A stretch of DNA of 53,316 nt. Origin: Accumulibacter sp. Lineage in GTDB: Bacteria; Pseudomonadota; Gammaproteobacteria; Burkholderiales; Rhodocyclaceae. The stretch covers positions 1-53,316 of the forward strand of contig NZ_JAMTDX010000001.1 of assembly GCF_023806625.1 (NCBI RefSeq), read 5' to 3'. The notes under the pieces were generated by a model that was not told the origin of the DNA, did no database searches, and worked only from the letters and a program-made list of their open reading frames with translations. Both the position numbers and the translations under genes were made by a program. Shown here piece after piece: positions 22,259 through 41,904 of the stretch (positions are counted from its first letter, which is position 1; every line of letters starts with the position of its first letter).

Positions 22259-22337
22259 GCGCGCCGCGCTGTCGGTTACCCCGCCGGCGCTGCGACGACG
22301 CCCGAATCATCCCACCGCATCGAAAGGAAAACCGCAC

Positions 22338-22691
22338 GTGAGCATGCAGGATTACGCCTCCCGTCTCAGTGATCCGGCCAGCCGGAAGTTCGAGACCTTC
22401 TCCTATCTGCCGCCGATGGACACTGCCGGGATTCGCAAGCAGGTCGAGTACATCGTCAACAAGGGCTGGAACCCGGCGATCGAGCACACCGAGCCCGAAT
22501 ACCTGATGGACACCTACTGGTACATGTGGAAGCTGCCGATGTTCGGCGAGACCGATGTCGAGAAGATCCTCGCCGAGGCCGAGGCCTGTCACAAGGCCAA
22601 TCCGGGCAACCACGTGCGCCTGGTCGGCTACGACAACTTCAAGCAGTCGCTGGGCGCCGCGATGGTCGTCTATCGCGGCAGGACCGTCTGA
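22338..22691 (+). CDS. cbbS: RuBisCO small subunit
   Basis: 117 residues starting at GTG (AAAGGA nine bases upstream; an ATG two codons later is an alternative). The family core [11 protein letters not shown], the Pro/Glu segment [19 protein letters not shown] and the C-terminal [12 protein letters not shown] are all present. It lies 79 bases after cbbL and would complete the L8S8 enzyme. It lacks the long loop insertion of plant enzymes, as expected. Confidence 0.97.
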
Positions 22692-22794
22692 CCGGACACC
22701 GGCCAGGCTGCCAAGCACTCGCGGCGGGCGGTGCCGCCTTTCCGGCGCTGCGGTCCGTCCGCTGCCCGATCCGCGCCAACCCTGGAGGATGGAG

Positions 22795-23673
22795 ATGAAC
22801 CCGATCGTCGACCAGTACCGGATCGCCCGCGAGCCGTATTACCGTCCTGTTGCCGACGAGGTCGAGCTGTTCGCCGCGGCGTATTCCACGCGCATGCCGA
22901 TGATGCTCAAGGGGCCGACCGGCTGCGGCAAGACGCGCTTCGTCGAGTACATGGCCTTCCGGCTCGGCCGGCCGCTGATCACCGTCGCCTGCAACGAGGA
23001 CATGACCGCCTCGGACCTCGTCGGGCGATTCCTGCTCTCGGCCTCCGGAACCGAGTGGCACGACGGTCCGCTGGCCATCGCTGCGCGCCACGGGGCGATC
23101 TGCTACCTCGACGAAATCGTCGAGGGGCGGCAGGACACGACCGTGGTCATCCACCCGCTGACCGACAGTCGCCGCGTTCTGCCGCTCGAGAAGAAGGGCG
23201 AACTGCTCCGGGCGCATCCCGACTTCCAGATCGTCATTTCCTACAACCCGGGCTACCAGAGCCTGATGAAGGACCTCAAGCAGTCGACCAAACAGCGCTT
23301 CGGCGGACTCGACTTCAGCTATCCGGAGCACGGCGTCGAAGCCGAGATCGTCGCCCACGAGTCGGGGGTCTCCCCAGATGTCGCCGGCCGGCTCGTGTCG
23401 ATCGCCGAGCGCTCGCGCAACCTCAAGGGTCACGGTCTCGACGAGGGGTTATCGACGCGCATGCTGATCCACGCCGGCAGCCTGATCAGCCGCGGCGTCC
23501 GGCCGCTGGCCGCGTGCCGCGTGGCGCTCGTGCGGCCGATCACCGACGATCCGGACATGCGCGACGCGCTCGATGCGGCGGTCAGCACCTTCTTCCAGGC
23601 GCAGGCGGGAGCGGCCGGCGCCGACCCTTCTCGAACCCCCAGCGGGGTAGCCGATGTCGATCGATCTGGCTGA
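22795..23673 (+). CDS. cbbQ: RuBisCO activase AAA+ subunit CbbQ
   Basis: About 292 residues of a MoxR-type AAA+ ATPase that works with CbbO to remove inhibitory sugar phosphates from RuBisCO. The ATG at 22795 is preferred because GGAGG lies six bases upstream; an ATG two codons earlier overlaps that site. Walker A is GPTGCGKTR (near residue 38), Walker B is [10 protein letters not shown] and the sensor/arginine-finger region [22 protein letters not shown] is intact. The C-terminal extension of about 20 residues is Ala/Gly-rich. The gene overlaps cbbO by 20 bases. Confidence 0.94.
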
Positions 23674-24523
23674 CTATCGCCAACTGCTCGACGGCCTCTC
23701 GCTGGCGAGCCGGGCGGCGCTGCAGGCGCACTGGCACGAGGCGACGCGCGTCCTTTCGCCGCGGGGTCTCGACAACTATCTGAGAGCCGCGGCAGCGATC
23801 GGCGATCTCGGTCGCGGCGATTCGCTGGTCGACGCCTGGCTCGGCGAAGCGCCGGTCGTCGCCCGGGAAATCGGCGAGGACGTCGTCGGCGATCTGGCTG
23901 CCGCCGCACTGTCGCTCGCCTCGCGGACCTCGGGGGCGGTGATCGAGCTGCTGCTTGCCACCGCCGCCACCGCCGCTCGTCGTCTCGCCGACGCCGAACT
24001 CTTCCGGAACTACCTGCAGTTCATCAACCTGCTCGTCGCCCAGGCGCCGCGCGGCGTGCGGCCGATGCTCGACAAGCTCGAGGTGCTCTTCGCGCAGCTC
24101 ACCCTCGGCGGGCTGCGCCGCTGGGCGCTCTGGGGGGCGCACGCGTACCGGACCGACTATCCGGAGCAGATCAGGTACTTCGGTCTCGATAGCCGCGAAT
24201 CGCTGGCCGTCCTGCAGAACGAGCGCAAGGGGACGCTGCTCGTCGACGTCCAACGCAGGATCAACATGTACCTGCGCGCCCTCTGGGGCGCGACTTCTTC
24301 ATGCGCCCGACTTCCGGAGACTTCGAGTCGCGTGAGGGCCATCGCCCGTACATCGCGGACTACCTGCTGCACCTGCCCGACGCGGTCGACGATGCTGCCG
24401 GCGTGCCCGGCCTCGAGATCTACCGGGCGATCGCCGCCCACTGTGCGGCGCACGTCGTCGAGACGCGCCGGCCGATCTGCGCCGACGCGCTCGACCCGCT
24501 GCAGGTCGCGCTCGTCTCGCTGA
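23654..24523 (+). CDS. cbbO: CbbO, N-terminal part (frameshifted)
   Basis: The first ~212 residues are the N-terminal helical portion of CbbO, the RuBisCO-activase adaptor. They run to [12 protein letters not shown] at about 24289. After that the frame translates into low-complexity Ser/Arg/Thr sequence and stops. The genuine continuation ([12 protein letters not shown]) is in the next frame. One missing C in the GGGGCGCG run at 24286-24291 (expected GGCCGC) accounts for the break. Either a real mutation or an assembly error; restoring the base would give a single protein of about 775 residues, the usual CbbO length. Confidence 0.85.
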
Positions 24524-25980
24524 TCGAGGACGCGCGCGTCGAGGCGCTGGCGATTCGCCGTTTCCCCGGGCTGCAGCTGTTGTGGAGCCGCTTGCACTTT
24601 GCGACGCCGCAGATGTCGACGAGCATCGGCGGCCATCTCGACCGCCTGGCGCGCTCGCTGCTCGACCCAGCGTATCGCGACGACGACCCGTGGATCGGCG
24701 AAGGCCGCGCGCTGTTCGGCGCCGCTGCCGAGCGGCTCGACGACAACCGGATCTCCCGGGAAATCGGTGTCGCGCTCGCCCAGCGCCTGGCGCAGAAGAA
24801 GATCCCGTTCGACCCGCGCTGCGACCTGCAGAGCGCCCCGTATCGCGACGACAACCGCTACTTCTGGCAATTTCGCGAGTTCGATCCGGTGCGCGCGGCT
24901 GCCGCCGGCTATGCAACGCTCAGGCAGGTGCGCCGCACCGTCAACGTGATGGAAATGGTCAACGAGGTCGACGTCGAGACCGCCGGCGACGACGCCCAGG
25001 AGGTCTGGGTCCTGGCCAGCGAGCTCTTCCCGTACGAAGACCGGGGCACGAGCTACAACGAACTCGAGGGCCAGGAGCCGCTCCCCGATCCGTACCACTA
25101 TGCCGAGTGGGACTATCAGATCCAGCTCGAACGACCGCTGTGGACGACGGTCGTCGAGAAGCGCGCACGGCCTGGCGACCTGCAGGTCGTCGCCGACATC
25201 GCCGCGCGCTACCGCCGCGAAATTCAGCGCATGCGCTTCGTCCTCGACGCGCTGCAGCCGCAGGGGGTCCAGCGCATCCGCAAGCTCGAGGACGGCGACG
25301 AGATCGACCTCGACGCGTCGATCGCCGGTCTCACCGACATTCGCCTCGGCCATCAGCCCGACCCGCGGATCATGATGCGCAGCGTGCGCAGGACGCGCGA
25401 CCTCTCGATCCTCGTCCTGCTCGACCTCTCCGAGTCGACGAACGAACGCGTGCATGCCCAGAAGTGCTCGGTGCTCGACCTGACCCGACGCGCCTGCGTG
25501 CTTCTCGCCGATGCGATCAACAAGGTCGGCGACCCGTTCGCGATCCACGGCTTCTGCTCCGACGGCCGGCACGAAGTCGCCTACTACCGCTTCAAGGACT
25601 TCGCCGAGAGCTGGGACGACCAGCCGAAAGCTCGGCTCGCGGGCATGATCGGGCAGCTGTCGACGCGCATGGGCGCGGCGATCCGCCATGCCGGCCATCA
25701 CCTCGGCCGACAGCGTTCGGCGAAGCGGCTGCTGCTGGTGATCACCGACGGCGAGCCGGCCGACGTCGACGTCCGCGATCCGCAGTATCTGCGCCAGGAC
25801 GCGAAGAAGGCGGTCGAGGAGGTTGCCCGGGCCGGAGTCACCGCCTTCTGCCTGAGCCTCGATCCGCGCGCCGACGCGTACGTGTCGAGGATTTTCGGGC
25901 AAAGGAACTACCTCGTCGTCGACCAGGTCGAGCGCCTGCCCGAACGGCTGCCGCAGCTCTACGCGGGGCTGACGCGATGA
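24301..25980 (+). CDS. cbbO: CbbO, C-terminal part with VWA domain (frameshifted)
   Basis: The open frame from 24301 (ATG inside the original gene) encodes 559 residues matching the remainder of CbbO. The true reading frame can be followed upstream to 24289. The C-terminal von Willebrand A domain (from about residue 360) has the MIDAS motif DLSES in LLDLSESTN and the later LLVITDGEPAD. The MIDAS site binds a metal and in characterised CbbQO contacts RuBisCO. It ends 209 bases before the CaiB-type gene on the other strand. An internal ribosome site is not evident, so this part may not be made unless the frameshift is an artefact. Confidence 0.85.
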   Translation: MRPTSGDFESREGHRPYIADYLLHLPDAVDDAAGVPGLEIYRAIAAHCAAHVVETRRPICADALDPLQVALVSLIEDARVEALAIRRFPGLQLLWSRLHFATPQMSTSIGGHLDRLARSLLDPAYRDDDPWIGEGRALFGAAAERLDDNRISREIGVALAQRLAQKKIPFDPRCDLQSAPYRDDNRYFWQFREFDPVRAAAAGYATLRQVRRTVNVMEMVNEVDVETAGDDAQEVWVLASELFPYEDRGTSYNELEGQEPLPDPYHYAEWDYQIQLERPLWTTVVEKRARPGDLQVVADIAARYRREIQRMRFVLDALQPQGVQRIRKLEDGDEIDLDASIAGLTDIRLGHQPDPRIMMRSVRRTRDLSILVLLDLSESTNERVHAQKCSVLDLTRRACVLLADAINKVGDPFAIHGFCSDGRHEVAYYRFKDFAESWDDQPKARLAGMIGQLSTRMGAAIRHAGHHLGRQRSAKRLLLVITDGEPADVDVRDPQYLRQDAKKAVEEVARAGVTAFCLSLDPRADAYVSRIFGQRNYLVVDQVERLPERLPQLYAGLTR

Positions 25981-27996: not shown

Positions 27997-29439
27997 ATGA
28001 AGCTCACGTTGACCCCTGACGATCTGGCCGCCTGCTACAACGAACTCCACGAGGCCAATGCGGCGTTCAAGGAGCACTACCCGGGCGATTCTTCGGACCG
28101 GCAGCAGGTGCACACGGTCTATGGTGGTGCCAACCTGTTCAAGGCCGGCTTCGCCGCCAAGCTCGGCGAAGTCGCGCTCAGGACGCTCGAAACCTACGCT
28201 CCCAATTACCACGTCTTCGCGCGCGTGCTCGGCTTGCCCGGCGCCGAAACGCTGCCCACCAACCCGCTCGAGATCCTCAGCCTGACGCGGGCACTCGAGA
28301 CCAATCCCGAACAGGTCCGGGAGGTGAAGCAGGCCGCCTGGCTGGCGTTCACGGTTTACAAGCGGGTGCTCAGGAAGCTCCAGTCCGAGCCGATCGAGGA
28401 CAACCGCATCGACTTCGAGGACGGCTACGGCAACCGTCCGGACGACGAGGAAGACGGTCACGCCGTCGCGGCGGCCGACGAGGTCGCCAAGGGAATGCGC
28501 GATGGACTGCTCTCTCCGTTCATCGGCATCCGCGTCAAGACCTTCTCCGACGAATGCAAGGTGCGTTCGATCCGCACGCTGGACATTTTCCTGACCCGTC
28601 TGGCCGAGCAGACCGGCAGCAGACTGCCGGAGAACTTCGTCGTGACGCTGCCCAAGGTGACGACGCCGACCCAGGTGTCCACCTTCGTCAGGATCCTCGA
28701 TACGCTCGAAGCGAGGCTGGGCTATCCGAAGGACTCGCTGAAGATGGAGATCATGATCGAGACCACCCAGTCGATCATCAATCACAAGGGCGAGAACACG
28801 GTGCCGTTGCTGGTCGCCGCCGCCGGTGGCCGCTGCCGCTCGGCGATCTTCGGGACCTACGATTACACGGCGTCGTGCAACATCACCGCGGCGTTCCAGA
28901 GCCACACCCATCCGGCCTGCGATTTCGCTCGCCACGTGCTGCAGGTCAGCCTCGCCGGCACCGGCATCACGATCAGCGACGGCGCGACGACGACCATGCC
29001 GATCGGGCCGCACAAGGCCGCTGCGGGCGGCGCGCTGACGCCGCAGCAGATGGATGAAAACCGCGCCGTGGTGCACGCCGCGTGGAAGCTGCACTACGAC
29101 AACATCATGCATTCGCTGAGTCACGGCTACTACCAGGGATGGGATCTGAACCCTGGTCAGCTGCCGGTGCGCTATGCGGCGGTCGATACCTTCTTCCTCA
29201 GCGGCCTGCAGGACGCCTCGGCACGGCTCAACGCGTTCCTCAACAAGGCCGCCCAGGCGACGCTGGTCGGCAATACCTTCGACGATGCGGCGACCGGGCA
29301 GGGGCTGCTGAACTTCTTCCTGCGCGGGATGGCCTGCGGGGCGATCACTGAGCAGGAAGTCCTGGCCACCGGCATCACGCTCGACGAACTGCGTTCGCGC
29401 TCGTTCGTGCGCATCGTCAACAACCGCGCCAGGCTATAG
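27997..29439 (+). CDS. CitE/HpcH-superfamily C-C lyase (DUF6986-like), probable beta-methylmalyl-CoA lyase
   Basis: 480 residues, much longer than the ~320-residue malyl-CoA lyases of alphaproteobacteria. TIM-barrel lyase features are visible: RIDFEDGYG (near residues 136-145) with acidic metal ligands, GIRVKTF with the substrate arginine, EIMIETTQSI with the conserved Glu, and GTYDYTASC. The extra N-terminal HTVYGGANLFKA segment matches the DUF6986-type branch of the superfamily. It heads the EMC operon (GGAGG before the ATG), so cleavage of beta-methylmalyl-CoA to glyoxylate and propionyl-CoA is the expected role. Another related aldol cleavage cannot be excluded. Confidence 0.75.
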   Translation: MKLTLTPDDLAACYNELHEANAAFKEHYPGDSSDRQQVHTVYGGANLFKAGFAAKLGEVALRTLETYAPNYHVFARVLGLPGAETLPTNPLEILSLTRALETNPEQVREVKQAAWLAFTVYKRVLRKLQSEPIEDNRIDFEDGYGNRPDDEEDGHAVAAADEVAKGMRDGLLSPFIGIRVKTFSDECKVRSIRTLDIFLTRLAEQTGSRLPENFVVTLPKVTTPTQVSTFVRILDTLEARLGYPKDSLKMEIMIETTQSIINHKGENTVPLLVAAAGGRCRSAIFGTYDYTASCNITAAFQSHTHPACDFARHVLQVSLAGTGITISDGATTTMPIGPHKAAAGGALTPQQMDENRAVVHAAWKLHYDNIMHSLSHGYYQGWDLNPGQLPVRYAAVDTFFLSGLQDASARLNAFLNKAAQATLVGNTFDDAATGQGLLNFFLRGMACGAITEQEVLATGITLDELRSRSFVRIVNNRARL

Positions 29440-29507: not shown

Positions 29508-31187
29508 ATGACCGAGGTCAATCGCGGGATCCAGGAAGCGTGGCCGCATCTCGAATCTGCCGACGCAGCGATCAGGAAGTCGCTGCGCTGGCTCAAGCAG
29601 CAATGCACAGGTGCCAGGGGGGTGTCGAGCGAGAAGCTCGACGAGCATCAGATGACCAGTTTCGACCTGGCCTGGTGCGCGGCCGAATCGACCGCTGCCC
29701 GCTTTGCGGCGGAGTACGCCGCCAGGGTCGCGGCCGTCGGTAGGTCGGGCGGCGCGGGCGTGAGCATCGAGGAGCGAATGGCGCTCGCCTTCTGCGCCGA
29801 GGCCCTGCAGAACATCCACAACCGTCTGTGGGCGAGACCGCAAAGCTTCGGCCTCGACGAAGCCGACGTGGCGGCTCTCGCTTCGTCGGGTCTGAGTCAT
29901 TTTTGCCAGGAGCAGCTCGACGCGCACCATCTCGAAGCGCTCGGCAAGGACGTGATCGCGCTCAACGGCACGAGCGGGGCGTACCTGCTGAGCGACGACG
30001 CGACGATGATGCAGGATTCGTTCCGCAAGCTGGCGACGAACGTGGTGATGCCTCTGGCCGAGGAGATCCATCGCCACGACCGGATCATCCCGCAGGAAAT
30101 CCTCGAACCGCTGACCGAAATGGGTTGCTTCGGTCTGTCGATTCCCGAGCGCTACGGTGGTATCCAGAGCGATGCGCATGAAGACAACATGGGCATGATC
30201 GTGGTCACCGAGGAACTCTCGCGCGGCTCTCTTGGCGGTGCGGGCAGCCTGATCACCCGTCCCGAGATCCTCAGCCGGGCCTTGCTCAAGGGGGGCACCG
30301 AGGAACAGAGGGAGAAGTGGCTGCCGAGGGTCGCGATGGGCGATCCGCTGTGCGCGATCGCCGTGACCGAGCCGGACGCCGGCTCGGACGTCGCCGCGAT
30401 GCGCCTCAAGGCGACGAAGTGCGACGGCGGCTGGATTCTCGACGGCGTCAAGACCTGGTGCACGATGGCCGGCAAGGCCGGCGTTCTGCTCGTCCTGGCG
30501 CGGAGCAACCCGGATCGCTCGCTCGGCCACCGGGGTCTGAGCATGTTCCTCGTCGAAAAGGACGCCTACGAAGGGCACGACTTCGAGTACCGGCAGGCGC
30601 AGGGCGGCATGATCACCGGTCGCGCGATCGCGACGATCGGCTATCGCGGGATGCATTCGTACGAGGTGTTCTTCGACCATGTCTTCGTTCCCGACGAGAA
30701 CCTGGTCGGCGGCCCGGATGGCGAAGGCAAGGGTTTCTACATCGCGATGGCCGGCTTCGCCGGCGGCCGGATCCAGACCGCAGCGCGTGCGATCGGCGTC
30801 ATGCAGGCGGCTTTCGAGCGGGCGGTTTCGTATTCGCAGGAGCGCAAGGCGTTCGGCAAGCCGATCGGCGAGTTCCAGCTGACGCGCGTCAAGCTCGCGC
30901 GGATGGCCACGCTGCTGACCGTTTCAAGGCAGTTTACCTACGCCGTCGGGCGGCTGATGGACCAGGGTCTCGGCCAGATGGAGGCGAGCATGGTCAAGCT
31001 GTTCACCTGCCGGACGGCCGAGTGGCTGACCCGCGAAGCGATGCAGATCCACGGCGGCATGGGCTACGCCGAGGAAACGCCGGTCAGCCGTTATTTCGTC
31101 GACGCGCGCGTCCTGTCGATCTTCGAGGGAGCCGAGGAGACGCTGGCCCTCAAGGTCATTACCCGTTCCCTGATCGACGCGCTCTAG
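29508..31187 (+). CDS. mcd: (2S)-methylsuccinyl-CoA dehydrogenase
   Basis: 559 residues, with an N-terminal extension of about 160 residues before the acyl-CoA dehydrogenase fold, as in EMC-pathway Mcd. FAD-binding and core motifs are present: AIAVTEPDAGSDVAAM, KTWCTMAG, IQIHGG-type MQIHGGMGYAEE, and the catalytic base region LSIFEGAEETLAL (Glu near residue 540). It oxidises methylsuccinyl-CoA to mesaconyl-C1-CoA. AAGGAAAGGAAC precedes the ATG. It lies 68 bases after the lyase gene and 45 bases before the hydratase gene. The only alternative is another long acyl-CoA dehydrogenase; context makes Mcd likely. Confidence 0.9.
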   Translation: MTEVNRGIQEAWPHLESADAAIRKSLRWLKQQCTGARGVSSEKLDEHQMTSFDLAWCAAESTAARFAAEYAARVAAVGRSGGAGVSIEERMALAFCAEALQNIHNRLWARPQSFGLDEADVAALASSGLSHFCQEQLDAHHLEALGKDVIALNGTSGAYLLSDDATMMQDSFRKLATNVVMPLAEEIHRHDRIIPQEILEPLTEMGCFGLSIPERYGGIQSDAHEDNMGMIVVTEELSRGSLGGAGSLITRPEILSRALLKGGTEEQREKWLPRVAMGDPLCAIAVTEPDAGSDVAAMRLKATKCDGGWILDGVKTWCTMAGKAGVLLVLARSNPDRSLGHRGLSMFLVEKDAYEGHDFEYRQAQGGMITGRAIATIGYRGMHSYEVFFDHVFVPDENLVGGPDGEGKGFYIAMAGFAGGRIQTAARAIGVMQAAFERAVSYSQERKAFGKPIGEFQLTRVKLARMATLLTVSRQFTYAVGRLMDQGLGQMEASMVKLFTCRTAEWLTREAMQIHGGMGYAEETPVSRYFVDARVLSIFEGAEETLALKVITRSLIDAL

Positions 31188-31232: not shown

Positions 31233-32420
31233 ATGTCGCAGGCCATTCGTTTCCGGCCGCAGGTCGAACTTGCCGGGAAGGTCGCGGTGGACGTCCAGAA
31301 CGTCCGCTACCCGCACTACGGACGTTATCTCGAAGAGTTCTCGCCAGGGCAGGTCTTCGTCCACCCGCGCGGCTTCACCTTCCTGCGCGCGCAGATGGAG
31401 GCCTTTGCCCGGACCTACATGCAGTGCAATCCGCTCTACCTCAACGACCAGTATGCCAGGGCTTGCGGTTTCTCGGGGCTGGTCGCTTCGCCGCAGATGG
31501 TCTTCAACGTCGTCCTCTCGCTCGGCGTGCAGAACGACTCGGAGAAGGCGATGGCCAACCTCGGCTACTACGATGCGCAGTACCTGCGGCCGGTGTACGA
31601 AATGGACACGATCCGCTCGCTGACCAAGGTCGTCGATCGCAAGGAGCGGGGCCCGGGCAAACCGGGGATCGTGACGATCCGCACGCTCGGTATCAACCAG
31701 AACGGTGAGGTGGTGCTGCAGTATCAGAGGAAGATCATGGTCGCCGGGCAGGGCGAGCGTCCGCCAACGACGCCGTTGCCCGCGCCGGTCGACGGTCGCA
31801 TGCCGGCCTTCCCGTGGGTGGAAGACGGCGCAGTCGTGCTGCCCGATTTCCCGGCGCGGCTGCCGCTCGGGCTCACCGGACCCGGATCGTTCTTCGAGGA
31901 CTTCTCGGTCGGCGAGATCATCGTCCATGCCAACGGCCGGACGATCACCGACGAGCACCTCGCGCTGACCTACGCGGTCGGCAACACGCATCCGCTGCAC
32001 TTCGACCGGGTTTTCAGCTCGGGTCTGTCCGGCAAGATGAGCGGCGACCCGATCGTCTATGGCGGGCTGGCCTTTGCCTGGCTCGAAGGACTCGCCAGCC
32101 GCGACGTCAGCGACAACAGCGTCTGGGAACTCGGCTTCACCGAGGGCTACCACACGCAGCCGTCGATTGCCGGCGATACGGTCGCCGTGCTGTCGCGCGT
32201 GCTGGCCAAGGAAGAAGCGCCGGGTACGCTGGCCGATCGGTTCGGTATCGTCAGCTTCCAGCTCGTCGGGGTCAAGAACGTCAGCGCGGCGGCCGCGCTG
32301 GCCAGGCACGGCGGGGACCTGTTCGTCAAGGAGAACGACAAGAAGGATCTCGGCAAGGACAAGATCGACGAGAAGATCTTCGAAATCGAAAGACGTCTGC
32401 TGATCAGGAAGAGGAGCTAA
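31233..32420 (+). CDS. mch: Mesaconyl-CoA hydratase (MaoC family)
   Basis: 395 residues, a double hot-dog enzyme. The N-terminal MaoC half includes GQVFVHPRGFT and FARTYMQCNPLYLND. The C-terminal half has GEIIVHANGRTITDEHLALTYAVGNTHPLHFD, with the Asp/His hydratase pair region. It hydrates mesaconyl-C1-CoA to beta-methylmalyl-CoA. AAAGGAGG lies six bases from the ATG. The C terminus runs about 35 residues longer than typical Mch and is Lys/Asp-rich. It is placed directly before ecm (2-base gap). Confidence 0.9.
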   Translation: MSQAIRFRPQVELAGKVAVDVQNVRYPHYGRYLEEFSPGQVFVHPRGFTFLRAQMEAFARTYMQCNPLYLNDQYARACGFSGLVASPQMVFNVVLSLGVQNDSEKAMANLGYYDAQYLRPVYEMDTIRSLTKVVDRKERGPGKPGIVTIRTLGINQNGEVVLQYQRKIMVAGQGERPPTTPLPAPVDGRMPAFPWVEDGAVVLPDFPARLPLGLTGPGSFFEDFSVGEIIVHANGRTITDEHLALTYAVGNTHPLHFDRVFSSGLSGKMSGDPIVYGGLAFAWLEGLASRDVSDNSVWELGFTEGYHTQPSIAGDTVAVLSRVLAKEEAPGTLADRFGIVSFQLVGVKNVSAAAALARHGGDLFVKENDKKDLGKDKIDEKIFEIERRLLIRKRS

Positions 32421-32422
32421 TC

Positions 32423-34441
32423 ATGGTTGCCGCCTCGCGGAAGAGGGACCAGCCCTGGCTGATAAGGACCTACAGCGGTCATAGCTCGGCCAGGGCGTCC
32501 AACGAGCTGTATCGCAGCAATCTGGCCAAGGGCCAGACCGGTCTGTCGGTAGCCTTCGACCTGCCGACGCAGACCGGTTACGACGCCGACAGTCCGCTCG
32601 CGCGCGGTGAGGTGGGCAAGGTCGGTGTGCCGATCTCGAGCATCGAGGACATGGATCAGCTGTTCGACCAGATCCCCCTCGACCAGATGAACACGTCAAT
32701 GACCATCAACGCCACCGCGGCCTGGTTGCTCGCGCTGTACATCGCTCTGGCGCAGCGGCGCGGAATCGATCCGAGAAAGCTCAGCGGCACGACCCAGAAC
32801 GACATCATCAAGGAGTATCTCTCGCGCGGTACGTACATTTATCCGCCGGGTCCGTCGATGCGCCTGATCGCCGACACGATCAACTACACGGTCAGGCACG
32901 TCCCGAGGTGGAACCCGACCAACGTCTGCAGCTATCACCTGCAGGAGGCGGGCGCGACACCGGTGCAGGAACTCGCCTACGCGCTGTGCACGGCGATGGC
33001 CGTGCTCGACCGCGTCAAGGCTTCGGGCGAGATCGCTGCCGAGGATTTTCCGCAGGTCGTCGAGCGGATCTCGTTCTTCGTCAATGCCGGTATCCGCTTC
33101 GTCGAGGAGTGCTGCAAGCTGCGCGCATTCGGCGAGATGTGGGACGAGCTGACGCGCACCCGCTACCAGGTGGACGATGCGAAGATGCGGCGCTTCCGCT
33201 ACGGCGTCCAGGTCAACTCGCTGGGTTTGACCGAGGCGCAGCCGGAGAACAACGTGCAGCGGATCGTTCTCGAGATGCTCTCGGTGGTCCTCTCGAAGCG
33301 CGCCAGGGCGCGCGCGATCCAGCTTCCGGCGTGGAACGAGGCGATGGGCCTGCCGCGACCCTGGGATCAGCAGTGGGCGCTGCGCATCCAGCAGGTGATG
33401 GCCTTCGAAACCGACCTGCTCGAGTACGGCGACATCCTCGACGGTTCGCCGGTGATCGCCGCCAAGGTCGCCGAGCTGATCGCCGGCGCCCGGCAGGAGA
33501 TCGAGAACGTCGACGCGCAGGGCGGGATCATTGCCGCGATCGAGTCCGGTTACGTCAAGCGCGAACTGGTGGCCAGCCACATGAACCGTCTGCGCGCGAT
33601 CGAGTCGGGCGAGCTGAAGATCATCGGCGTCAACTGCTTCGAGGAAACGGCCGAGTCGCCGCTGACTGCCGGTAGCGACGCAGCGATCATGAAACCCGAC
33701 CCGGAAGCCGAGCGCCGGCAGATCGAACGGCTGCAGGCGCATCGCCGGCAGCGCAACGGCAGCGACGTGCAGGCCGCGCTGCAGGCACTCGCCGACGCCG
33801 CGCAGAGTGGCGAGAACATCATGCCGAGTTCGATTCGCTGCGCGCTCGCGGGGGTCAGTACCGGCGAATGGGGAAACGCGCTGCGTGCCGTCTTCGGCGA
33901 GTTCCGACCACCGACCGGAATCGACATCGCGATCGACAGCCGCGAGGTTCTCGGTCAGAAGGATCGGGTCAGCGACCTGCGCGACAGGGTGGCCAGTACG
34001 GGCAATGCCCTGGGTCGTCCGTTGAAGCTGCTGGTCGGCAAACCCGGCCTCGACGGCCATTCGAACGGCGCCGAACAGGTCGCCGTCAAGGCCAGGGACG
34101 TCGGTTTCGAAGTGGTGTACGACGGAATCCGGCTGACTCCGCAGCAGATCGCGCAAGCGGCCGAGGAGGAAGGCGTGCATGTGGTCGGCCTGTCGATCCT
34201 CTCGGGCAGCCACATGGAACTCGTGGAGTCGGTGCTGCAGGAACTGCGCACCCGCGACCTCGGCGACCTGCCGGTGATCGTCGGCGGCATCGTTCCGCCC
34301 GAGGATGCCGATCGTCTGTTCGCGCTGGGCGTGCGCGGCGTCTATACGCCGAAGGACTTCGACCTGAACGCGATCATGGGCGACATCGTCGATGTCGTCC
34401 GTGAGTGCAACGGGCTCGAGCGGCTCGGCGCGTTGCATTGA
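32423..34441 (+). CDS. ecm: Ethylmalonyl-CoA mutase, B12-dependent
   Basis: 672 residues from the ATG after GAGGAG; a longer frame upstream lies within mch and is rejected. The N-terminal barrel begins with WLIRTYSGHSSARASNELYR and contains the substrate region SGTTQNDIIKEYLSRGTYIYPP. The C-terminal cobalamin domain has the base-off His motif DGHSNG (Asp544), SILSGSH and the GGIVPPED loop. The type is adenosylcobalamin-dependent acyl-CoA mutase of the MeaA/Ecm branch, fused single chain. It isomerises ethylmalonyl-CoA to methylsuccinyl-CoA. It is followed by meaB with a 4-base overlap. Confidence 0.93.
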   Translation: MVAASRKRDQPWLIRTYSGHSSARASNELYRSNLAKGQTGLSVAFDLPTQTGYDADSPLARGEVGKVGVPISSIEDMDQLFDQIPLDQMNTSMTINATAAWLLALYIALAQRRGIDPRKLSGTTQNDIIKEYLSRGTYIYPPGPSMRLIADTINYTVRHVPRWNPTNVCSYHLQEAGATPVQELAYALCTAMAVLDRVKASGEIAAEDFPQVVERISFFVNAGIRFVEECCKLRAFGEMWDELTRTRYQVDDAKMRRFRYGVQVNSLGLTEAQPENNVQRIVLEMLSVVLSKRARARAIQLPAWNEAMGLPRPWDQQWALRIQQVMAFETDLLEYGDILDGSPVIAAKVAELIAGARQEIENVDAQGGIIAAIESGYVKRELVASHMNRLRAIESGELKIIGVNCFEETAESPLTAGSDAAIMKPDPEAERRQIERLQAHRRQRNGSDVQAALQALADAAQSGENIMPSSIRCALAGVSTGEWGNALRAVFGEFRPPTGIDIAIDSREVLGQKDRVSDLRDRVASTGNALGRPLKLLVGKPGLDGHSNGAEQVAVKARDVGFEVVYDGIRLTPQQIAQAAEEEGVHVVGLSILSGSHMELVESVLQELRTRDLGDLPVIVGGIVPPEDADRLFALGVRGVYTPKDFDLNAIMGDIVDVVRECNGLERLGALH

Positions 34442-35460
34442 CGCCGCAAGTGGCGCACGCCAGCCTTCCCGATCCGGAGCTGCTCGCTTCCCGGATCCTG
34501 CGCCGCGAGCGGGCAGCCGTGGCCAGCGGCCTGAACCTGCTCGACAACAGGCTCGCCGAGGCGCGCATGCGGGCCGTGCGCCTGCTCGCCTGTCTCTCGG
34601 GTGAGCGCTGGCTGAACGAAGGCCATCTGATCGGGGTCACCGGTCCTCCCGGAGCGGGCAAGTCGTCGCTCGTCTCGGCGATGATCCGCGAGTGGCGAGC
34701 ATCGGGGCGGACGGTCGGCGTGCTCGCCGTCGATCCGTCGAGTCGTCCCGAACTCGGCGGCGGCGCGCTGCTCGGCGACCGCATCCGGATCAAGACGCCG
34801 CTGAACGACGACGGCCTGTTCATCCGTTCGCTGGCCAATCGCAACCAGCTTGGCGGGGTGGCCAGCGAGGTCTGGCCGATGAGCTGGCTGATGCTCGTCT
34901 GTTTCGACGTGGTGGTGATCGAGACCGTCGGCGTCGGACAGACCGAGATCGACATTGCCGAGATCGGCGATACGGTGTGTTACGTCGCCCAGCCGGCTTC
35001 GGGCGACACGATTCAGTATCTGAAGTCGGGAATCATCGAAATTCCCGACATCTTCGCGGTCAACAAGGCTGACCTCGGAGCCCCCGCGCGCAAGACGGCG
35101 AGCGAGATCGCGCGCAGCGCGCGGCGTCAGGATCGTCGCGACGACTGGGATTACCCGGTTTGTCTGGTCAGCGCGACGATGACCACCGGCATCAGGTCCT
35201 TTCACGACCATTTCGACCGGCACCGCCGGTATCTGGTCGATTCCGGCCTGCTCGGCAGACTGCGCTTGCGCCATCAGAGCGCCTGGGTGGTGCGTCTGAT
35301 CAGGGAGGAATTCGGTACTTTCGGCCTCGATCTGGCGGGTGGTCGTGCCGCCGTCGAACGACGTCTGAGCGAGAGCCGATGCAATCAGTTCGAGGAGTAC
35401 GAGCGTATGCGGACGCATATGCTGTCCCGCTTGCTGTCGGTCAACCAAACGACCCTTTAA
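34438..35460 (+). CDS. meaB: MeaB-type GTPase chaperone of B12-dependent mutase
   Basis: About 340 residues when started at the TTG that overlaps the ecm stop (TTGA); a GTG 33 bases earlier is also open. It is a G3E-family GTPase: P-loop GPPGAGKSS (about 67-75), AVDPSSRPELGG, IETVGVGQTEIDIAE and NKADLG. MeaB proteins protect and load the mutase with cofactor. The tight coupling to ecm fits. The C-terminal dimerisation arm includes a RLRLRHQSAWVVRLIREE segment. No strong ribosome site is present, consistent with translational coupling. Confidence 0.9.
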   Translation: MTPQVAHASLPDPELLASRILRRERAAVASGLNLLDNRLAEARMRAVRLLACLSGERWLNEGHLIGVTGPPGAGKSSLVSAMIREWRASGRTVGVLAVDPSSRPELGGGALLGDRIRIKTPLNDDGLFIRSLANRNQLGGVASEVWPMSWLMLVCFDVVVIETVGVGQTEIDIAEIGDTVCYVAQPASGDTIQYLKSGIIEIPDIFAVNKADLGAPARKTASEIARSARRQDRRDDWDYPVCLVSATMTTGIRSFHDHFDRHRRYLVDSGLLGRLRLRHQSAWVVRLIREEFGTFGLDLAGGRAAVERRLSESRCNQFEEYERMRTHMLSRLLSVNQTTL

Positions 35461-35478: not shown

Positions 35479-37233
35479 ATGACGAAACAACTGTACGCAC
35501 TGGGTGAATTGCCTCCGCTGGGCACGGTCCCGGAAAAGATGCACGCCTGGCTGATTCGCCCCGAACGCTTTGGCAAGCCTACGGTCGCGTTCCAGCAGGA
35601 GGTGGTCAATACGCCGGCCATCGGCGACGATGAAGTCCTGGTTCTGGTGATGGCCGCCGGAATCAACTACAACAACGTCTGGGCGGCGCTGGGCATTCCG
35701 GTCAATGTGATCGCCGCGCGCAACAAGGCCGGCGAACCCGAAGACTTCCACATCGGTGGCAGCGACGCCTCCGGCATCGTCTACAAGGTCGGCAAGGACG
35801 TCAGGAACGTCAAGGTCGGCGACGAAGTGGTCATGCATTGCGGTCAATGGAGTCGCAACTGCGAGTGGGTCAAGGGCGGTGGCGATCCGATGTATTCGCC
35901 GAGCTTCCGCATCTGGGGCTACGAGACCAACCACGGCAGCTTTGCCCAGTTCACCAAGGTCCAGGACCATCAGTGCATGCCCAAGCCCAAGCACATGACC
36001 TGGGAAGAGTCGGCCGCCTATACGCTGGTGGCGGCGACGGCGTGGCGGATGCTGCACGGCTGGGGCGCCAACTCGATCAAGAAGGGCGACGTCGCCCTGA
36101 TCTGGGGCGGTGCAGGCGGCCTCGGTTCGATGGCCATCCAGATCGCCAAGGCCGTCGGCGCGACGTCGGTCGCGGTGGTCTCGGGCGAGGACAAGTTCGA
36201 CTACTGCATGAAGCTCGGCGCGAAAGGGTGCATCAACCGCAACGAGTTCGACCACTGGGGAATGCTGCCGCACTGGAAGGACAACGCGGGCTACGCGAAA
36301 TGGCTGAAGGGCGTGCGGGCCTTCGGCTCGAAGATCTGGGACATCCTGGGTGAGCGGCGCGCTCCGAATCTCGTCTTCGAGCATCCCGGCGAAACGACGA
36401 TCCCGACCTCGATTTTCGTCTGCGAGACCGGCGGGATGGTGGTCGTCTGTGCGGGCACCACCGGTTACAATGCGACGGTCGATCTGCGCTACCTCTGGAT
36501 GCGCCAGAAGCGCCTGCAGGGATCGCATTTCGCCAACGCCAAGCAGTCGAACGACATGAACCAGCTGGCGCTGCAGGGCCAGCTCGACCCGTGCATGTCG
36601 CGCGCCTTCACCTACGATGATCTGCCACTTGCCCATCAACTCATGCACGACAACAAACACCCGCACGGCAACATGTCGGTCCTCGTTTCCGCGACCCAGT
36701 TCGGTCTCGGAGTCAGCGGCAAGGCTGCGGTGACGATCGTCCATCCGACGCTGCCCAAGGACGACGTCCATACGACGCCGGCACCGTACCCGATGTCCGT
36801 TCCGCTGCCGAGCATCGCCGAGGGCGAACCGATCACCATCGCCGACGACGGCAGCAAGGTTCGCGATCTGATGCACCGCGGAATCATCTCCTGCACTCCG
36901 GACGACACCGTTGGCGTGGTCGCCAAACTGATGGTCGAGAAGGAAATACACGCGGTGGTGGTGATGGATTCCGAGGGCAAGGCGGTCGGCGTCGTCTCGC
37001 AGACCGACATGGTGCTCGCGCGCCAGGGCCGGACATCCGGGGAGGCGCGCGCGATGCTCGCCCGCGAGGTGATGACCCCCGGTTGCGCCACCTGCGACGC
37101 GGACATGTTGCTCAGCGACGCGGTCAGTCTGCTGACGGCTCGCCGGATGCATCGGCTGGTGGTCACCGAGAACGACCAGCCGGTCGGCGTGATCTCGATG
37201 ACCGACGTGGTGCGCAAGATCATCGGCGACTAG
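35479..37233 (+). CDS. ccr: Crotonyl-CoA carboxylase/reductase fused to a CBS-domain pair
   Basis: 584 residues. Residues 1 to about 440 match Ccr of the MDR superfamily: [24 protein letters not shown], the Rossmann segment [20 protein letters not shown] and the [10 protein letters not shown] region. It reduces and carboxylates crotonyl-CoA with NADPH and CO2 to ethylmalonyl-CoA. A Pro-rich linker (about 441-455) leads to two CBS motifs (about 460-515 and 532-584) with the adenosyl-phosphate signatures GVVSQTDMV and GVISMTDVV. Typical Ccr ends before this point, so the tail adds about 130 residues. There is no stop or start between the parts. AAGGAG precedes the ATG. A perfect hairpin follows. 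Confidence 0.94.
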
Positions 37234-37295: not shown

Positions 37296-37359
37296 CCGCC
37301 ACACTATGGTTGCGCCTTGAAACGGGAAGACGCTTCCCGAGCTTTGGGGGTTGTCCAGG

Positions 37360-38340
37360 ATGCGAGCCGTTGTCTGCGATACTCTTGCCGGACCCGAAGC
37401 GCTGCGTCTCGACGATCTTCCGGAGCCGCAGCCCGCTCCGGGTCAGCTGCGCATTCTCGTCCGCGCCTGCGGGGTCAACTTCGCGGACAGCCTGATCACT
37501 CGCGGCGAGTACCAGACGCAGCCGGATCTGCCGTTCACCCCTGGTTTCGAGGTCTCCGGCGAGGTGCTCGAGCTGGGCGCCGGGGCCACGGGCGCCGCAG
37601 TTGGCGACCGGGTGATCGCCGTCGTCCCCTGTGGGGGCTATGCGGAGCAGGTCGTCGTCGACCAGAGCCGCTGCGTATCGATCCCGGCGCAACTGCCGTG
37701 GGAGGAAGCGGCCGCGTTCCCGGTCGTCTTCGGCACCTCGCACGTCGCCCTTGCGCACCGCGCGCGGCTCCGCGCGGGCGAGACGCTGGTCGTGCACGGC
37801 GCTGCGGGTGGCGTCGGGCTGACTGCCGTGGCGATCGGCAAGCGGCTCGGGGCGACGGTGATCGCCACCGCCGGCGGGCCGGAGAAGCTCGCCGTGGCGC
37901 GTGAACACGGTGCCGACCAGCTGATCGATTCTCGCCGCGAAGACGTGCGCGCGAGGATCAGGGATCTGACCGGCGGGCAAGGCGCCGACGTCGTCTATGA
38001 TCCGGTCGGCGGGGACCTGTTCGCCGCCTCGCTGCGCAGCATCGCCTTCGAGGGGCGAATCGTCGTCGTCGGCTTTGCGGCGGGCAGTGTGCCGCAGATT
38101 CCGGCCAACCACCTGCTCGTCAAGAACGTGGACGTGATCGGCCTGAACTGGCCGGCGTACGCCGAGTTGAACCCCGGGGTGATGCGCGAGAGCCTCCGGA
38201 CGCTGCTCGGCTGGCTCGCCGATGGCCTGATCCGGCCGCATGTCTCGGCGGTCTACCCGCTGGAGCGTGTGGTCGAGGCGATCGACCAGGTGGTCAGCCG
38301 CCGATCGACCGGGAAGGTGGTCGTGACCACCGCACAATGA
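37360..38340 (+). CDS. Zinc-independent MDR oxidoreductase (quinone oxidoreductase-like)
   Basis: 326 residues from ATG 37360 (a TTG nine bases upstream is also open). The medium-chain dehydrogenase fold has GVNFADSLITRG, PGFEVSGEVLELG, the NADPH-binding AAGGVGLTAVAIGKRLGA and the C-terminal YPLERVVEAIDQV. No zinc ligands are seen, as in QOR and acryloyl-CoA reductase-like enzymes. It follows the ccr hairpin and may be a separate unit. In this context it could reduce an enoyl-CoA such as acrylyl-CoA, or a quinone; this cannot be decided from sequence alone. Confidence 0.82.
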   Translation: MRAVVCDTLAGPEALRLDDLPEPQPAPGQLRILVRACGVNFADSLITRGEYQTQPDLPFTPGFEVSGEVLELGAGATGAAVGDRVIAVVPCGGYAEQVVVDQSRCVSIPAQLPWEEAAAFPVVFGTSHVALAHRARLRAGETLVVHGAAGGVGLTAVAIGKRLGATVIATAGGPEKLAVAREHGADQLIDSRREDVRARIRDLTGGQGADVVYDPVGGDLFAASLRSIAFEGRIVVVGFAAGSVPQIPANHLLVKNVDVIGLNWPAYAELNPGVMRESLRTLLGWLADGLIRPHVSAVYPLERVVEAIDQVVSRRSTGKVVVTTAQ

Positions 38341-38478: not shown

Positions 38479-38928
38479 ATGAATCCTCAGAATGGCTACG
38501 ATATCGAAGACCTGTCGGTCGGCATGAGCGCAGAGATCGCCAAGACGATCACCGACGCCGACCTCGTCCTTTTCGCCGGTGTGTCGACCGACGTCAACGC
38601 CGTCCACATGGATGAAGAGTTTGGCCGGACGACGATGTTCGGCGGCCGCATCGCGCACGGGATGCTCACTGCCAGCCTGATTTCGGCCGTGCTCGGCAAT
38701 CGCCTGCCCGGCCCGGGGACGATCTACATGAATCAGTCGCTGCGCTTCCGCGCGCCGGTGCGTCCCGGCGAGACGGTCCATGCGAAAGTGACGGTCAAGG
38801 AAGTGATCGTCGAGAAGTCGCGGGTCGTGCTCGATACGGTGTGCACCGTCGGCGACAAGGTGGTCATCGACGGCGAGGCGACGCTGATGGCCACTTCGCG
38901 CAGGAAGCGCGAGGCCGCCGGCAAGTAG
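38479..38928 (+). CDS. MaoC-like (R)-specific enoyl-CoA hydratase, PhaJ-like
   Basis: 149 residues, single hot-dog domain. The hydratase-2 motif is present as GVSTDVNAVHMDEEFG (catalytic Asp/His near residues 38 and 43), followed by GGRIAHGMLTASL and a C-terminal strand set. AAAGGA is eight bases before the ATG. Such enzymes interconvert crotonyl-CoA and (R)-3-hydroxybutyryl-CoA, which would link the EMC entry substrate crotonyl-CoA to PHB. A 3-hydroxyacyl dehydratase for another chain length is the alternative. Confidence 0.82.
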   Translation: MNPQNGYDIEDLSVGMSAEIAKTITDADLVLFAGVSTDVNAVHMDEEFGRTTMFGGRIAHGMLTASLISAVLGNRLPGPGTIYMNQSLRFRAPVRPGETVHAKVTVKEVIVEKSRVVLDTVCTVGDKVVIDGEATLMATSRRKREAAGK

Positions 38929-39881: not shown

Positions 39882-41174
39882 TCAGGAGAGTACGTCCTTC
39901 CAGATCGCCGTCGCCCAGGCGCGGGTGTACTGTCCCTCTTCGACCGACGGCTCCAGCGAGACGCCGCCCGAGCCCTCGACAACCAGCGGCAGGCGCTTTT
40001 CGGGGTCGTAGCGATGAACCGAATCGACGTGGATGGCGCGCCTGTCATCGACCAGCGAATAGCAGGTGTTGGCGAGGAGAGTCGGCTGCGGGTCTCGGCC
40101 GGAGAGAATCTCGACGATGGCTGAGGCCGCGGCCTTGCCGTGCTGATTGGCCATGTGCCCGGACTTGGGCATCAAGGGTGCGGCCTGCAGAGCGTCACCG
40201 AGGACGTGTATGTTGCCGACGGCGGTCGACTCCAACGTGATCCAGTTGACCTCCGCCCAGCGGTCGTTGACGTTGACCACTCCGGTGGAGCGCGCGATAT
40301 CCGCGGCTCGCTGCGGCGGCAGCAGATTGAGGATCTCGCCGCGTTCCTTGTCGCCAAGCTCACTGGTGACGATCTGCGTGGTCGCGTCGACCTCGACGAC
40401 GTTCCAGCCCGGCCGGTATTCGATGAGGCCCTTGTACTCGCTTTCCCAGACGCCGAGAAAGAGCTTTTCCTTCGAGATCACCTTGTCGTTGGCGTCGAGG
40501 ACGATGACCTTCGAACGCGGCTTGTGGGTCTTGAAGTACCAGGCGACCTGGCTGGCGCGTTCGTAGGGGCCCGGCGGGCACCGGTAGGGCGCCTTCGGGA
40601 TTGAGAGCACGTAGGTGCCGCCGTCCGGAAGATCGACGAGTTGCTGGCGCAAGGCCAGGGTTTGTGGACCCGCCTTCCAGGCGTGGAGGATGGTCTCGCG
40701 TGCTGTGGCGTCGTAACCTTCGATGGCCCCGAAGATGAAGTCGAACCCTGGGGCGAGCACCAGCCGGTCGTACGCGAGTTCTCCTGCAGAATCGGTGCGC
40801 ACGCGGCGGGAGTCGGCATCCACGCCCACGACCGTCGCGCGTACCACCCGGACCCCCCAGTTCCTGCGCAGGTTGTCGTAGCTGTGGACCAACGTCTCGT
40901 AGGGACGGTTGCCCGCGAGAACTTCGTTGGAAGCAGGGCAGGAGATGAACCGGCTGTTGCGTTCGATCAGCGTCACGTCGATCGCTCCGCCGCTCCACTT
41001 GCGCAGGTACTTGGCCGCGGTCGCGCCACCGAAGCCGGCACCGATGACGATGACCTTGCCGAGCTTCCGCCGGTTGTCACCGGCGCCGATGGCATTTCGG
41101 GAGAATGTGGCAAGAGTGGCGCAGGCCCCGAGTCCCTGGAGGACGCGACGGCGGTCGGGGTTGAAACGGGACAT
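39882..41174 (-). CDS. fccB: Flavocytochrome c sulfide dehydrogenase, flavoprotein subunit
   Basis: 430 residues. A twin-arginine-like signal (RRRVLQGLGACATLA, residues 8-22) directs export. The FAD-binding motif VIVIGAGFGGATAAKYL begins near residue 40. The conserved cysteine regions FISCPASNEVL and YRCPPGPYERA of the redox disulfide are present, as is GHMANQHGKAAA. The C-terminal flavin-binding domain is complete. It oxidises sulfide in the periplasm and passes electrons to FccA. fccA lies 12 bases upstream. Confidence 0.93.
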   Translation of the reverse strand: MSRFNPDRRRVLQGLGACATLATFSRNAIGAGDNRRKLGKVIVIGAGFGGATAAKYLRKWSGGAIDVTLIERNSRFISCPASNEVLAGNRPYETLVHSYDNLRRNWGVRVVRATVVGVDADSRRVRTDSAGELAYDRLVLAPGFDFIFGAIEGYDATARETILHAWKAGPQTLALRQQLVDLPDGGTYVLSIPKAPYRCPPGPYERASQVAWYFKTHKPRSKVIVLDANDKVISKEKLFLGVWESEYKGLIEYRPGWNVVEVDATTQIVTSELGDKERGEILNLLPPQRAADIARSTGVVNVNDRWAEVNWITLESTAVGNIHVLGDALQAAPLMPKSGHMANQHGKAAASAIVEILSGRDPQPTLLANTCYSLVDDRRAIHVDSVHRYDPEKRLPLVVEGSGGVSLEPSVEEGQYTRAWATAIWKDVLS

Positions 41175-41186
41175 GAGGGTATCTCC

Positions 41187-41510
41187 CTATTTCTGCTTCG
41201 AGAAGTAGTCGGCAAGGATGGCGATCTCGTCGTCGGTGTAGCCTTTGGCCAGCTGTTGCATGATCGTCGCTGGCCGCTCGCCGCGTTTGTAGGCTTTCAT
41301 CGTCTCTTCGATGTACTCCCTGTCGCGCCCGGCCAACGAAGGCATCGCCGTGGTGCTCTTGCCGTCCGTGCCATGACAGTTGAAGCAATTGGCGACGAAA
41401 TACGGAAAGCGCGGCGCCTGGGTCGTGCTTGCCGCCGGCTTTGTCTCGGCGGCAAGCAGAGGGGTGGCGAGGGAGCCGGCGAGGACGAGGGCACAGAGAG
41501 ATCGGTTCAT
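41187..41510 (-). CDS. fccA: Monoheme cytochrome c subunit of sulfide dehydrogenase
   Basis: 107 residues from the ATG after AGGAG; the longer frame adds a proline-rich lead without ribosome site. The signal peptide is cleaved near LLAA-E. There is one heme site, CFNCHG (CxxCH), and a distal methionine candidate in the AMPSLAGR block. The single heme resembles the small FccA type rather than the diheme form of purple bacteria. It accepts electrons from FccB. Confidence 0.88.
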   Translation of the reverse strand: MNRSLCALVLAGSLATPLLAAETKPAASTTQAPRFPYFVANCFNCHGTDGKSTTAMPSLAGRDREYIEETMKAYKRGERPATIMQQLAKGYTDDEIAILADYFSKQK

Positions 41511-41589
41511 CAGGACTCCTTGATACGGGAAGGAACGCGGGGGACGGGTCGGGCTCGGGGGGCTCTGGGTGGTCATCGTCGTCGAGGGG

Positions 41590-41904
41590 CTACCCGGCAG
41601 TCGCTTCGGCACTCTGTCGGTTGCCGCGGTTGTCCGACCAGCTCACGCGAACCGTGTCACCAGCCCGCACCCCGGCCACCCGCCAGCTGAATCTTGGATC
41701 GGCGGAGATGCCGGGTCCAGTGAAGACGGTTGCCACGAGTTCACCGTTGACCTGCAATTCGACCTCGGTGATGAAATGCGCAGGGAGCACCTCGCCGTCC
41801 GGTCCCTTGTTGGAACCGCTTTCCATCGGGTGTCGGAAGAATGCCCGGATCAGGGTAGCGCGCTCTTCGACAGTCACGCGCAGGCGTATCGGCGGCTGGT
41901 TCAT
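41590..41904 (-). CDS. soxZ: Sulfur-carrier partner protein SoxZ
   Basis: 104 residues from the internal ATG (14 codons into the open frame). It has the SoxZ immunoglobulin-like fold pattern: RHPMESGSNKGPDGE, PAHFITEVELQVNG and DTVRVSWSDNRGNRQS. It partners SoxY, to which sulfur atoms are attached. No signal peptide, as expected, because SoxZ is exported with SoxY. It starts 13 bases after the soxY stop. Confidence 0.92.
   Translation of the reverse strand: MNQPPIRLRVTVEERATLIRAFFRHPMESGSNKGPDGEVLPAHFITEVELQVNGELVATVFTGPGISADPRFSWRVAGVRAGDTVRVSWSDNRGNRQSAEATAG

Follow-up and report, generated by a model that had tools for sequence, protein, structure and literature searches.

The window analyzed here is a stretch of 53,316 nucleotides from Accumulibacter sp. 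(contig NZ_JAMTDX010000001.1), and it carries a gene in which crotonyl-CoA carboxylase/reductase (Ccr) is joined in one reading frame to a C-terminal pair of CBS motifs. The Ccr-CBS fusion was detected in 63 distinct proteins, and a single fusion event with later horizontal spread is its probable history. We consider it somewhat probable that the CBS pair binds adenine nucleotides and sets the activity of Ccr, in which case the entry step of the ethylmalonyl-CoA (EMC) pathway would follow the energy charge of the cell. Ccr belongs to acetate metabolism and catalyses the key step of this pathway; its class is among the fastest of the CO2-fixing enzymes (PMC12632816). The first-pass annotation of this DNA had allowed that the fusion might already be common and described. 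It proved to be widespread, while no description of it was found in the open-access literature, most subscription journals being outside the scope of that search. Ccr and the CBS pair are both known kinds, and domain databases may already list their combination.

The fused protein and its catalytic part

The open reading frame (ORF) starts with ATG at 35479, its stop codon ends at 37233, and the 584 encoded amino acids (aa) include no internal stop. The CBS and TIGR01751 matches exceed their cutoffs, and the earlier claim of one uninterrupted frame made of Ccr and two CBS motifs is borne out. TIGR01751, the NCBIfam equivalog model for Ccr, scored 568.9 bits (cutoff 378.55) over aa 16-412, corresponding to positions 3-396 of the 398 in the model. 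The Pfam domains PF08240 (ADH_N) and PF00107 (ADH_zinc_N) were located at aa 49-171 and 214-362, respectively. PF00571 (CBS) matched in two stretches (E 9e-26), and CBS1 and CBS2 each passed the Pfam test (54.7 and 49.2 bits, cutoff 24). The nucleotide signature reported for each motif is present, as GVVSQTD (aa 504-510) and GVISMTD (aa 570-576). A complete Ccr is encoded as had been stated, but it does not extend to about residue 440: the catalytic part terminates near aa 410, and a linker begins at aa 412 and runs to aa 458. This linker is predicted to be disordered, with a predicted local distance difference test score (pLDDT) below 50 at aa 422-454 in the monomer model.

In KsCcr, CO2 is held by N81, F170, E171 and H365, according to the part of the source available (PMC10966969). 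Through an alignment with the S. collinus enzyme these residues correspond to N65, Y148, E149 and H350 of the fused protein, all of which are present in 63/63 fused proteins. Among the unfused proteins, Y148 and H350 were found in 60/60, N65 in 59/60 (one X) and E149 in 52/60. The position of KsCcr F170 is thus Tyr in every fused and unfused protein, as it also is in the solved enzymes of M. extorquens and AntE. Because the CO2-pocket residues are kept, carboxylation is taken as intact, and the window protein would be a catalytically competent crotonyl-CoA carboxylase/reductase.

In-frame ATG/GTG/TTG codons occur inside the fused ORF at aa 399, 418, 439 and 465, and AAGG was seen by eye a few bases 5' of those at aa 418 and 465. 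An internal start at aa 418 or 465 may yield an additional short product consisting of the CBS pair only.

Conservation and fold of the CBS tail

Six tail residues (T509, D510, Q516, G517, H558 and D576) are invariant in the 63 fused proteins, and R556 and S507 are each present in 62. Both CBS motifs have the ribose-type Asp (D510, D576), and together with the basic H558 (63/63) and R559 (61/63) they make up the residue set expected of an adenylate sensor. In 36 thinned fused rows, 16 tail positions were invariant, and the mean pairwise identities of head, tail and linker were 0.80, 0.63 and 0.51, respectively. The ratio of nonsynonymous to synonymous change (dN/dS), calculated by the Nei-Gojobori method on up to 1313 non-independent pairs with high synonymous change, had medians of 0.103, 0.182 and 0.309 for head, tail and linker, respectively. 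These values indicate that the tail is under purifying selection, though less strongly so than the enzyme part.

When the full model was used for a structure search, dehydrogenases dominated the matches, and the tail was therefore folded and searched separately. Modelled alone as a monomer, it showed a CBS-pair fold (pLDDT 92.9), and its top fold match was AcuB carrying AMP and ADP, on a par with other CBS pairs. CBS2 aligned with the last CBS of AMPK gamma, including the HR and S-x-S/T-D motifs; the AMPK gamma residues matching H558-R559 and S-x-T-D are presumably ligand-contacting positions of AMPK. The ligand role of Asp in the CBS of AcuB was taken from PMC13121692. The earlier suggestion that carboxylation is tuned by nucleotides is well supported as an inference, in view of the invariant ligand-type residues, the purifying selection and the AMP/ADP-bound fold matches.

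Distribution of the fusion

The 79 loci compared were obtained by scanning one genome per species (best 80 of 123 relatives) with patterns from the window protein and are biased to close relatives. In 53 of them the match extends through the CBS part, as one frame in 51 and as broken frames in two (L043 and L049), while 26 (L054-L079) have reading frames ending near residue 410. Together with loci from further genome searches, 63 distinct fused proteins (582-597 aa, the window's included) and 60 distinct unfused proteins (407-425 aa) were obtained, with lengths counted from the position matching residue 1. In this count identical proteins were merged, frames not covering residues 16-370 were left out, and a few genomes contributed two. 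The fusion is not a singleton.

By record labels, the fused holders include Accumulibacter, Propionivibrio, Competibacter, Contendobacter, Defluviicoccus, Rhodospirillales and other Alphaproteobacteria, among them several uncultured ones, SAR324 and one Anaerolineae chromosome. Two of the fused proteins (L045, L052) are on records labelled chromosomes, and the window locus is 95% identical to that of A. adjunctus. Many holders, being genera of polyphosphate- or glycogen-accumulating organisms (PAO/GAO), fit the proposal that the fusion suits organisms which alternate between storage and growth, but Anaerolineae, SAR324 and uncultured alphaproteobacteria hold it as well.

Genomes were further surveyed with the window protein as query (E<=1e-60). 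In the family of the window, 3/150 genomes matched, all through the tail and all belonging to the window genus; of the four genomes listed for this genus, G125 had no match over the TIGR01751 cutoff. The phylum of the window gave 61/398 matching genomes, two through the tail, one of them the window genome. In the phylum of the Anaerolineae locus 12/251 matched, through the tail only in the centre genome. The order of G439 gave 112/199, with 15 matching through the full tail in addition to G943, which starts at a contig edge; several of the 15 coincide with loci from the species scan. Judged by these matches, the fused form is in the minority overall but frequent in certain lineages.

Hand-picked loci led to 32 genomes, of which 28 were of the fused type, 25 with fused copies only (E<=1e-40) and three with an unfused copy in addition (56% in G556, 39% in G549 and G550). 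Four of the 28 (G559, G560, G561 and G566) encode two fused copies each. The window genome encodes one Ccr only, its other matches at E<=0.001 being short (medium-chain dehydrogenase/reductase (MDR) or CBS parts). An unfused paralog as the real working Ccr was rejected on this account, although 3/28 fused genomes do carry one.

Locus L016 carries two fused genes on the same contig, separated by about 4 kb (6001-7752 and 11995-13746). In a Propionivibrio metagenome-assembled genome (MAG) the fused Ccr is split into two overlapping frames (L049:5638-7745), probably by a frameshift error. An 85% identical fused Ccr with its frame broken at both ends is found in a MAG labelled Synechococcaceae (L043), probably on a misbinned Competibacteraceae contig; the odd hosts of L038 (Rhizobiales) and L043 may both be binning errors.

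Origin and horizontal spread

A quick maximum likelihood tree of the catalytic part (aa 1-408) was calculated from 70 rows, 36 fused and 34 unfused, thinned at 93% and 85% identity, respectively, with SH-aLRT as branch support. All 36 fused rows clustered in one clade together with a single unfused one, L054 from Hahella sp. (SH-aLRT 97). Long-branch warnings concerned L170, L063 and L168 elsewhere in the tree. The fused and unfused states require two changes on this tree, for which one gain and one loss of the tail is the simplest reading; two gains may also account for them. The Anaerolineae protein forms the deepest branch of the fused clade and its tail retains SQTD...ARQGRT and IHRLVV...SMTD, which favours a single origin of the tail. 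Pairwise identities of head and tail were correlated (r = 0.92, 630 non-independent pairs). A tree of the tails with seven CBS pairs from the window's own genome placed one very long outgroup row among the tails and is compatible with either a single or a multiple origin of the tail.

By record labels, the fused clade spans Beta-, Gamma- and Alphaproteobacteria, SAR324 and Anaerolineae. Between the window and the Competibacter-type loci, identity was 82-86% for Ccr-CBS, 75-78% for methylsuccinyl-CoA dehydrogenase (Mcd), 70-71% for ethylmalonyl-CoA mutase (Ecm), 66-69% for mesaconyl-CoA hydratase (Mch) and 47-50% for MeaB, with lower values for L039 (Ccr-CBS 75%, Mcd 68%, Ecm 68%). Compared with SAR324, Ecm was 75% identical and Ccr-CBS merely 63-64%. 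Given the taxa spanned and the disagreement of the Ccr-CBS identities with those of the operon neighbours, the Ccr-CBS gene has probably moved horizontally, partly apart from its operon. Vertical inheritance within the family of the window is unlikely, as 147/150 family genomes had no match in the survey. Altogether, the sequence comparisons indicate a probable single fusion event followed by horizontal spread.

Proposed function and alternative explanations

In the mechanism that we favour, AMP/ADP and ATP would compete for sites built from D510, D576, H558 and R559. Binding would alter the rate or the oligomer, and the signal would pass via the linker or via CBS-CBS contacts between subunits. 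An adenylate-gated Ccr would thereby be placed at the branch point between polyhydroxybutyrate (PHB) and the EMC pathway. As to the sign, our guess, which could easily be wrong, is that AMP/ADP (low energy charge) raises the activity and ATP lowers it. Crotonyl-CoA would then be diverted from PHB to propionyl-CoA, a sink for reducing power when glycogen rather than polyphosphate supports the cell. The reason for choosing this sign is that cells relying on glycogen at limiting phosphate are held to produce an excess of reducing power, and EMC transcripts are raised in the same situation (PMC12604563). A wider scenario, possible but on the doubtful side, is that the once-only fusion produced an energy-charge-gated Ccr that, instead of ordinary Ccr, was passed horizontally among phyla and became a switch shared by PAO and GAO between PHB storage and reductive, CO2-fixing formation of propionyl-CoA. 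That adenylates bind, in which direction they act and that they change catalysis are all inferred.

Several observations weigh against these interpretations. H491 (59/63), R559 (61/63), S573 (61/63) and T575 (60/63) are not fully invariant, and the tail evolves faster than the head. The likeness to AMPK gamma spans only about 32 residues (E ~7e-4). The first 25 fold matches of the tail lie within 1 Z unit, and since CBS pairs with different ligands share the fold, the match cannot pick a ligand. In the predicted monomer models there is no contact between sensor and enzyme, with a flexible linker between them. L054 lies inside the fused clade without a tail, and the tail is for this reason probably dispensable for the reaction. 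In the catalytic part, the solved ECR 9kva, which is the top fold match, has Asn at the position of E149, and E149 alone therefore cannot define the Ccr class. The sign is based on physiological studies in which transcripts, and not a Ccr-CBS enzyme, were measured. AcuB is a precedent for the opposite sign, in which low energy charge lowers an acetyl-CoA pathway: AMP-bound AcuB inhibits the deacetylase by which acetyl-CoA synthetase is reactivated (PMC13121692).

The alternative that survives best, although unlikely, is that the CBS pair senses another molecule containing adenosine, such as NAD(P)(H), SAM/MTA, a CoA ester or a dinucleotide, e.g. Ap4A, and that Ccr is gated by redox state, substrate supply or stress instead of energy charge. 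It is disfavoured by the match of H558-R559 and S-x-T-D to the ligand-site pattern of AMPK gamma. The c-di-AMP cyclase domain DAC (PF02457) was found in only 2/12 fused genomes (G546 and G547) and is absent from the window genome, and c-di-AMP was rejected as a general ligand of the DarB type.

A mainly structural tail is less probable still. Here CBS dimers would link Ccr dimers to one another, giving tetramers or still larger assemblies, or would serve to dock pathway partners such as the mutase or MeaB, any nucleotide being structural only. Known Ccr/ECRs are dimers or tetramers and their oligomer state has been proposed to affect activity (PMC12632816, excerpts), the CBS pairs of AcuB dimerise, and MeaB and mutase genes adjoin Ccr-CBS. 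However, the ligand-type residues are invariant in both CBS motifs, beyond the need of a pure scaffold, and the operon is not co-inherited, MeaB of the Competibacter type being far less similar to that of the window than Ccr-CBS is, even in L039.

That the tail is a functionless passenger kept by common descent is very improbable. The tailless L054 and the variable linker would fit it, but the selection data largely refute it, namely the median dN/dS of the tail and its 16 invariant positions, and the tail is kept in five higher taxa (record labels) at identities down to 62%. An assembly or frameshift artefact joining two genes is refuted: MAGs do contain such errors, as the two broken frames among the 53 related loci illustrate, but the stop or frameshift looked for between the two parts is not present in the window, and a read-level error is excluded because the same fusion with the same junction occurs in 63 distinct uninterrupted proteins, two of them on chromosome-labelled records.

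Relation to known systems and significance

Stand-alone Ccr/ECRs (Methylorubrum extorquens 4gi2, AntE 4y0k and 9kva) share the catalytic domain, CO2-pocket residues and pathway context but end near residue 410-445, where the fused clade adds the linker and CBS pair. AcuB, the energy-charge sensor of Bacillus/Geobacillus whose phosphate contacts are R33 and H34, exists as a protein of its own, carries an ACT domain and targets the deacetylase AcuC, whereas the putative sensor of Ccr-CBS is covalently joined to a metabolic enzyme. AMPK gamma, which has four CBS motifs and acts within a kinase complex, shares the HR and S-x-S/T-D motifs over a short similarity. As portrayed in literature excerpts, IMP dehydrogenase and GMP reductase likewise combine a dehydrogenase or reductase with a CBS pair that binds nucleotides and acts allosterically. 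They belong to purine metabolism and have a different catalytic fold, whereas the CBS pair here is C-terminal on an MDR-fold carboxylase.

No report of allosteric control was found in the literature passages covering Ccr and allostery. An energy-gated Ccr, if confirmed, would to our knowledge be the first allosterically controlled Ccr. The fusion is conserved and spreading on a key CO2-fixing enzyme, and its hosts are environmentally important and mostly uncultured, many of them storage bacteria of phosphorus-removing sludge. In Accumulibacter, Competibacter and Defluviicoccus, gating, if real, would offer an assayable mechanism for redox balance and for the choice between PHB and polyhydroxyvalerate (PHV) at low polyphosphate. 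It would also make PAO/GAO metabolic switching directly testable and provide a nucleotide-switchable carboxylase for synthetic CO2-fixation cycles. In the parts available of three papers, redox and PHB-PHV balancing has so far been argued from genomes and transcripts (PMC8956781, PMC12604563, PMC9041414); the term CBS is absent from their main text.

Gene cluster and pathway context

The Mcd-, Mch-, Ecm-like and MeaB genes are located directly upstream of ccr and form an EMC pathway cluster (Table 1), the Ecm and Mcd identities being assigned by context, not by tree. For the window mutase the assignment also draws on 62-65% identity to mutases that neighbour ccr in loci of the Rhodobacteraceae and Rhizobiales types.

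Table 1. Features of the Ccr-CBS gene and its neighbours in the window
Feature	Position	Strand	Remarks
DUF6986 protein	27997..29439	+	PF22484, E 2e-178; weak match to beta-methylmalyl-CoA lyase
Acyl-CoA dehydrogenase with N-terminal extension, Mcd by context	29508..31187	+	
Mesaconyl-CoA hydratase-like (Mch)	31233..32420	+	PF19315
Cobalamin-dependent acyl-CoA mutase, Ecm by context	32423..34441	+	
MeaB-type GTPase, adjoining Ccr-CBS upstream	34405..35460	+	Below NCBIfam MeaB cutoff, above Pfam's
Fused Ccr and CBS pair, 584 aa	35479..37233	+	Pfam, NCBIfam, relatives
Catalytic Ccr part, aa 1-408, with CO2-pocket residues N65, Y148, E149, H350	35479..36702	+	Alignment
Linker, aa 412-458	36712..36852	+	42-54 aa among 63 fused proteins; low model confidence at 422-454
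CBS1, aa 461-514	36859..37020	+	Above Pfam cutoff
SQTD motif, aa 507-510	36997..37008	+	T509 and D510 invariant (63/63)
CBS2, aa 528-582	37060..37224	+	Above Pfam cutoff
H558-R559	37150..37155	+	Aligned with HR of AMPK gamma; H 63/63, R 61/63
SMTD motif, aa 573-576	37195..37206	+	D576 invariant (63/63)
Quinone oxidoreductase-like MDR protein, downstream	37351..38340	+	
MaoC-type (R)-enoyl-CoA hydratase-like	38479..38928	+	

The DUF6986 protein was also detected in the EMC loci of Propionivibrio (L029, 85%), SAR324 (L048, 79%) and Anaerolineae (L052, 62%). It is a candidate for the last EMC step (mcl), an assignment that is uncertain; other HpcH/HpaI proteins exist in the window genome, and DUF6986 is absent among the EMC genes reported for Competibacter in the excerpts available (PMC8956781). 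The downstream MDR gene is found in most Accumulibacter and Competibacter-type loci, and the MaoC-type protein could supply crotonyl-CoA.

Transcripts of ccr, mcd and mch rose more than four-fold in Contendobacter during reactor operation (PMC8956781), and the EMC pathway was up at low phosphate in Accumulibacter, where a redox-balance role was proposed (PMC12604563); the pathway in Defluviicoccus is covered by PMC9041414, each as given in excerpts of these papers.

Full-length isocitrate lyase, read as matches reaching both model ends, was found in 21/39 fused-type and 2/40 unfused-type genomes from hand-picked sets (a fragmented one also in G296); over the cutoff alone the counts were 33/39 and 17/40, many of the matches being short. 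The 21 positive fused genomes belong mostly to two lineages, one of the two unfused positives is the genome of L054, and none was found in the Defluviicoccus, SAR324 and Anaerolineae genomes examined. Isocitrate lyase was rejected as an explanation of the fusion, its distribution following lineage and no rule. Many fused holders may thus have to divide their acetyl-CoA over two anaplerotic pathways.

A second fused copy in Competibacter/Contendobacter is located between genes for beta-carbonic anhydrase and GTP-dependent PEP carboxykinase (L034:5199-10447, L035:5278-11528), followed in L035 by a malate/lactate dehydrogenase-type gene. Judging by these predicted products, it lies in a CO2-handling neighbourhood away from the EMC operon. 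At 20837-25980 (+) the window encodes the RuBisCO large chain (NF003252, 800.8 bits) and, after it, a CbbQ-type AAA protein together with a VWA protein that is CbbO-like by position. Predicted CO2-fixing genes of the Calvin-Benson-Bassham type and of the EMC pathway thus co-occur in the window. On the opposite strand, 39882-41612 (-) includes a flavocytochrome c sulfide dehydrogenase flavoprotein gene and, upstream of it, a small ORF (41187-41612) in which a CxxCH haem motif was recognized by eye.
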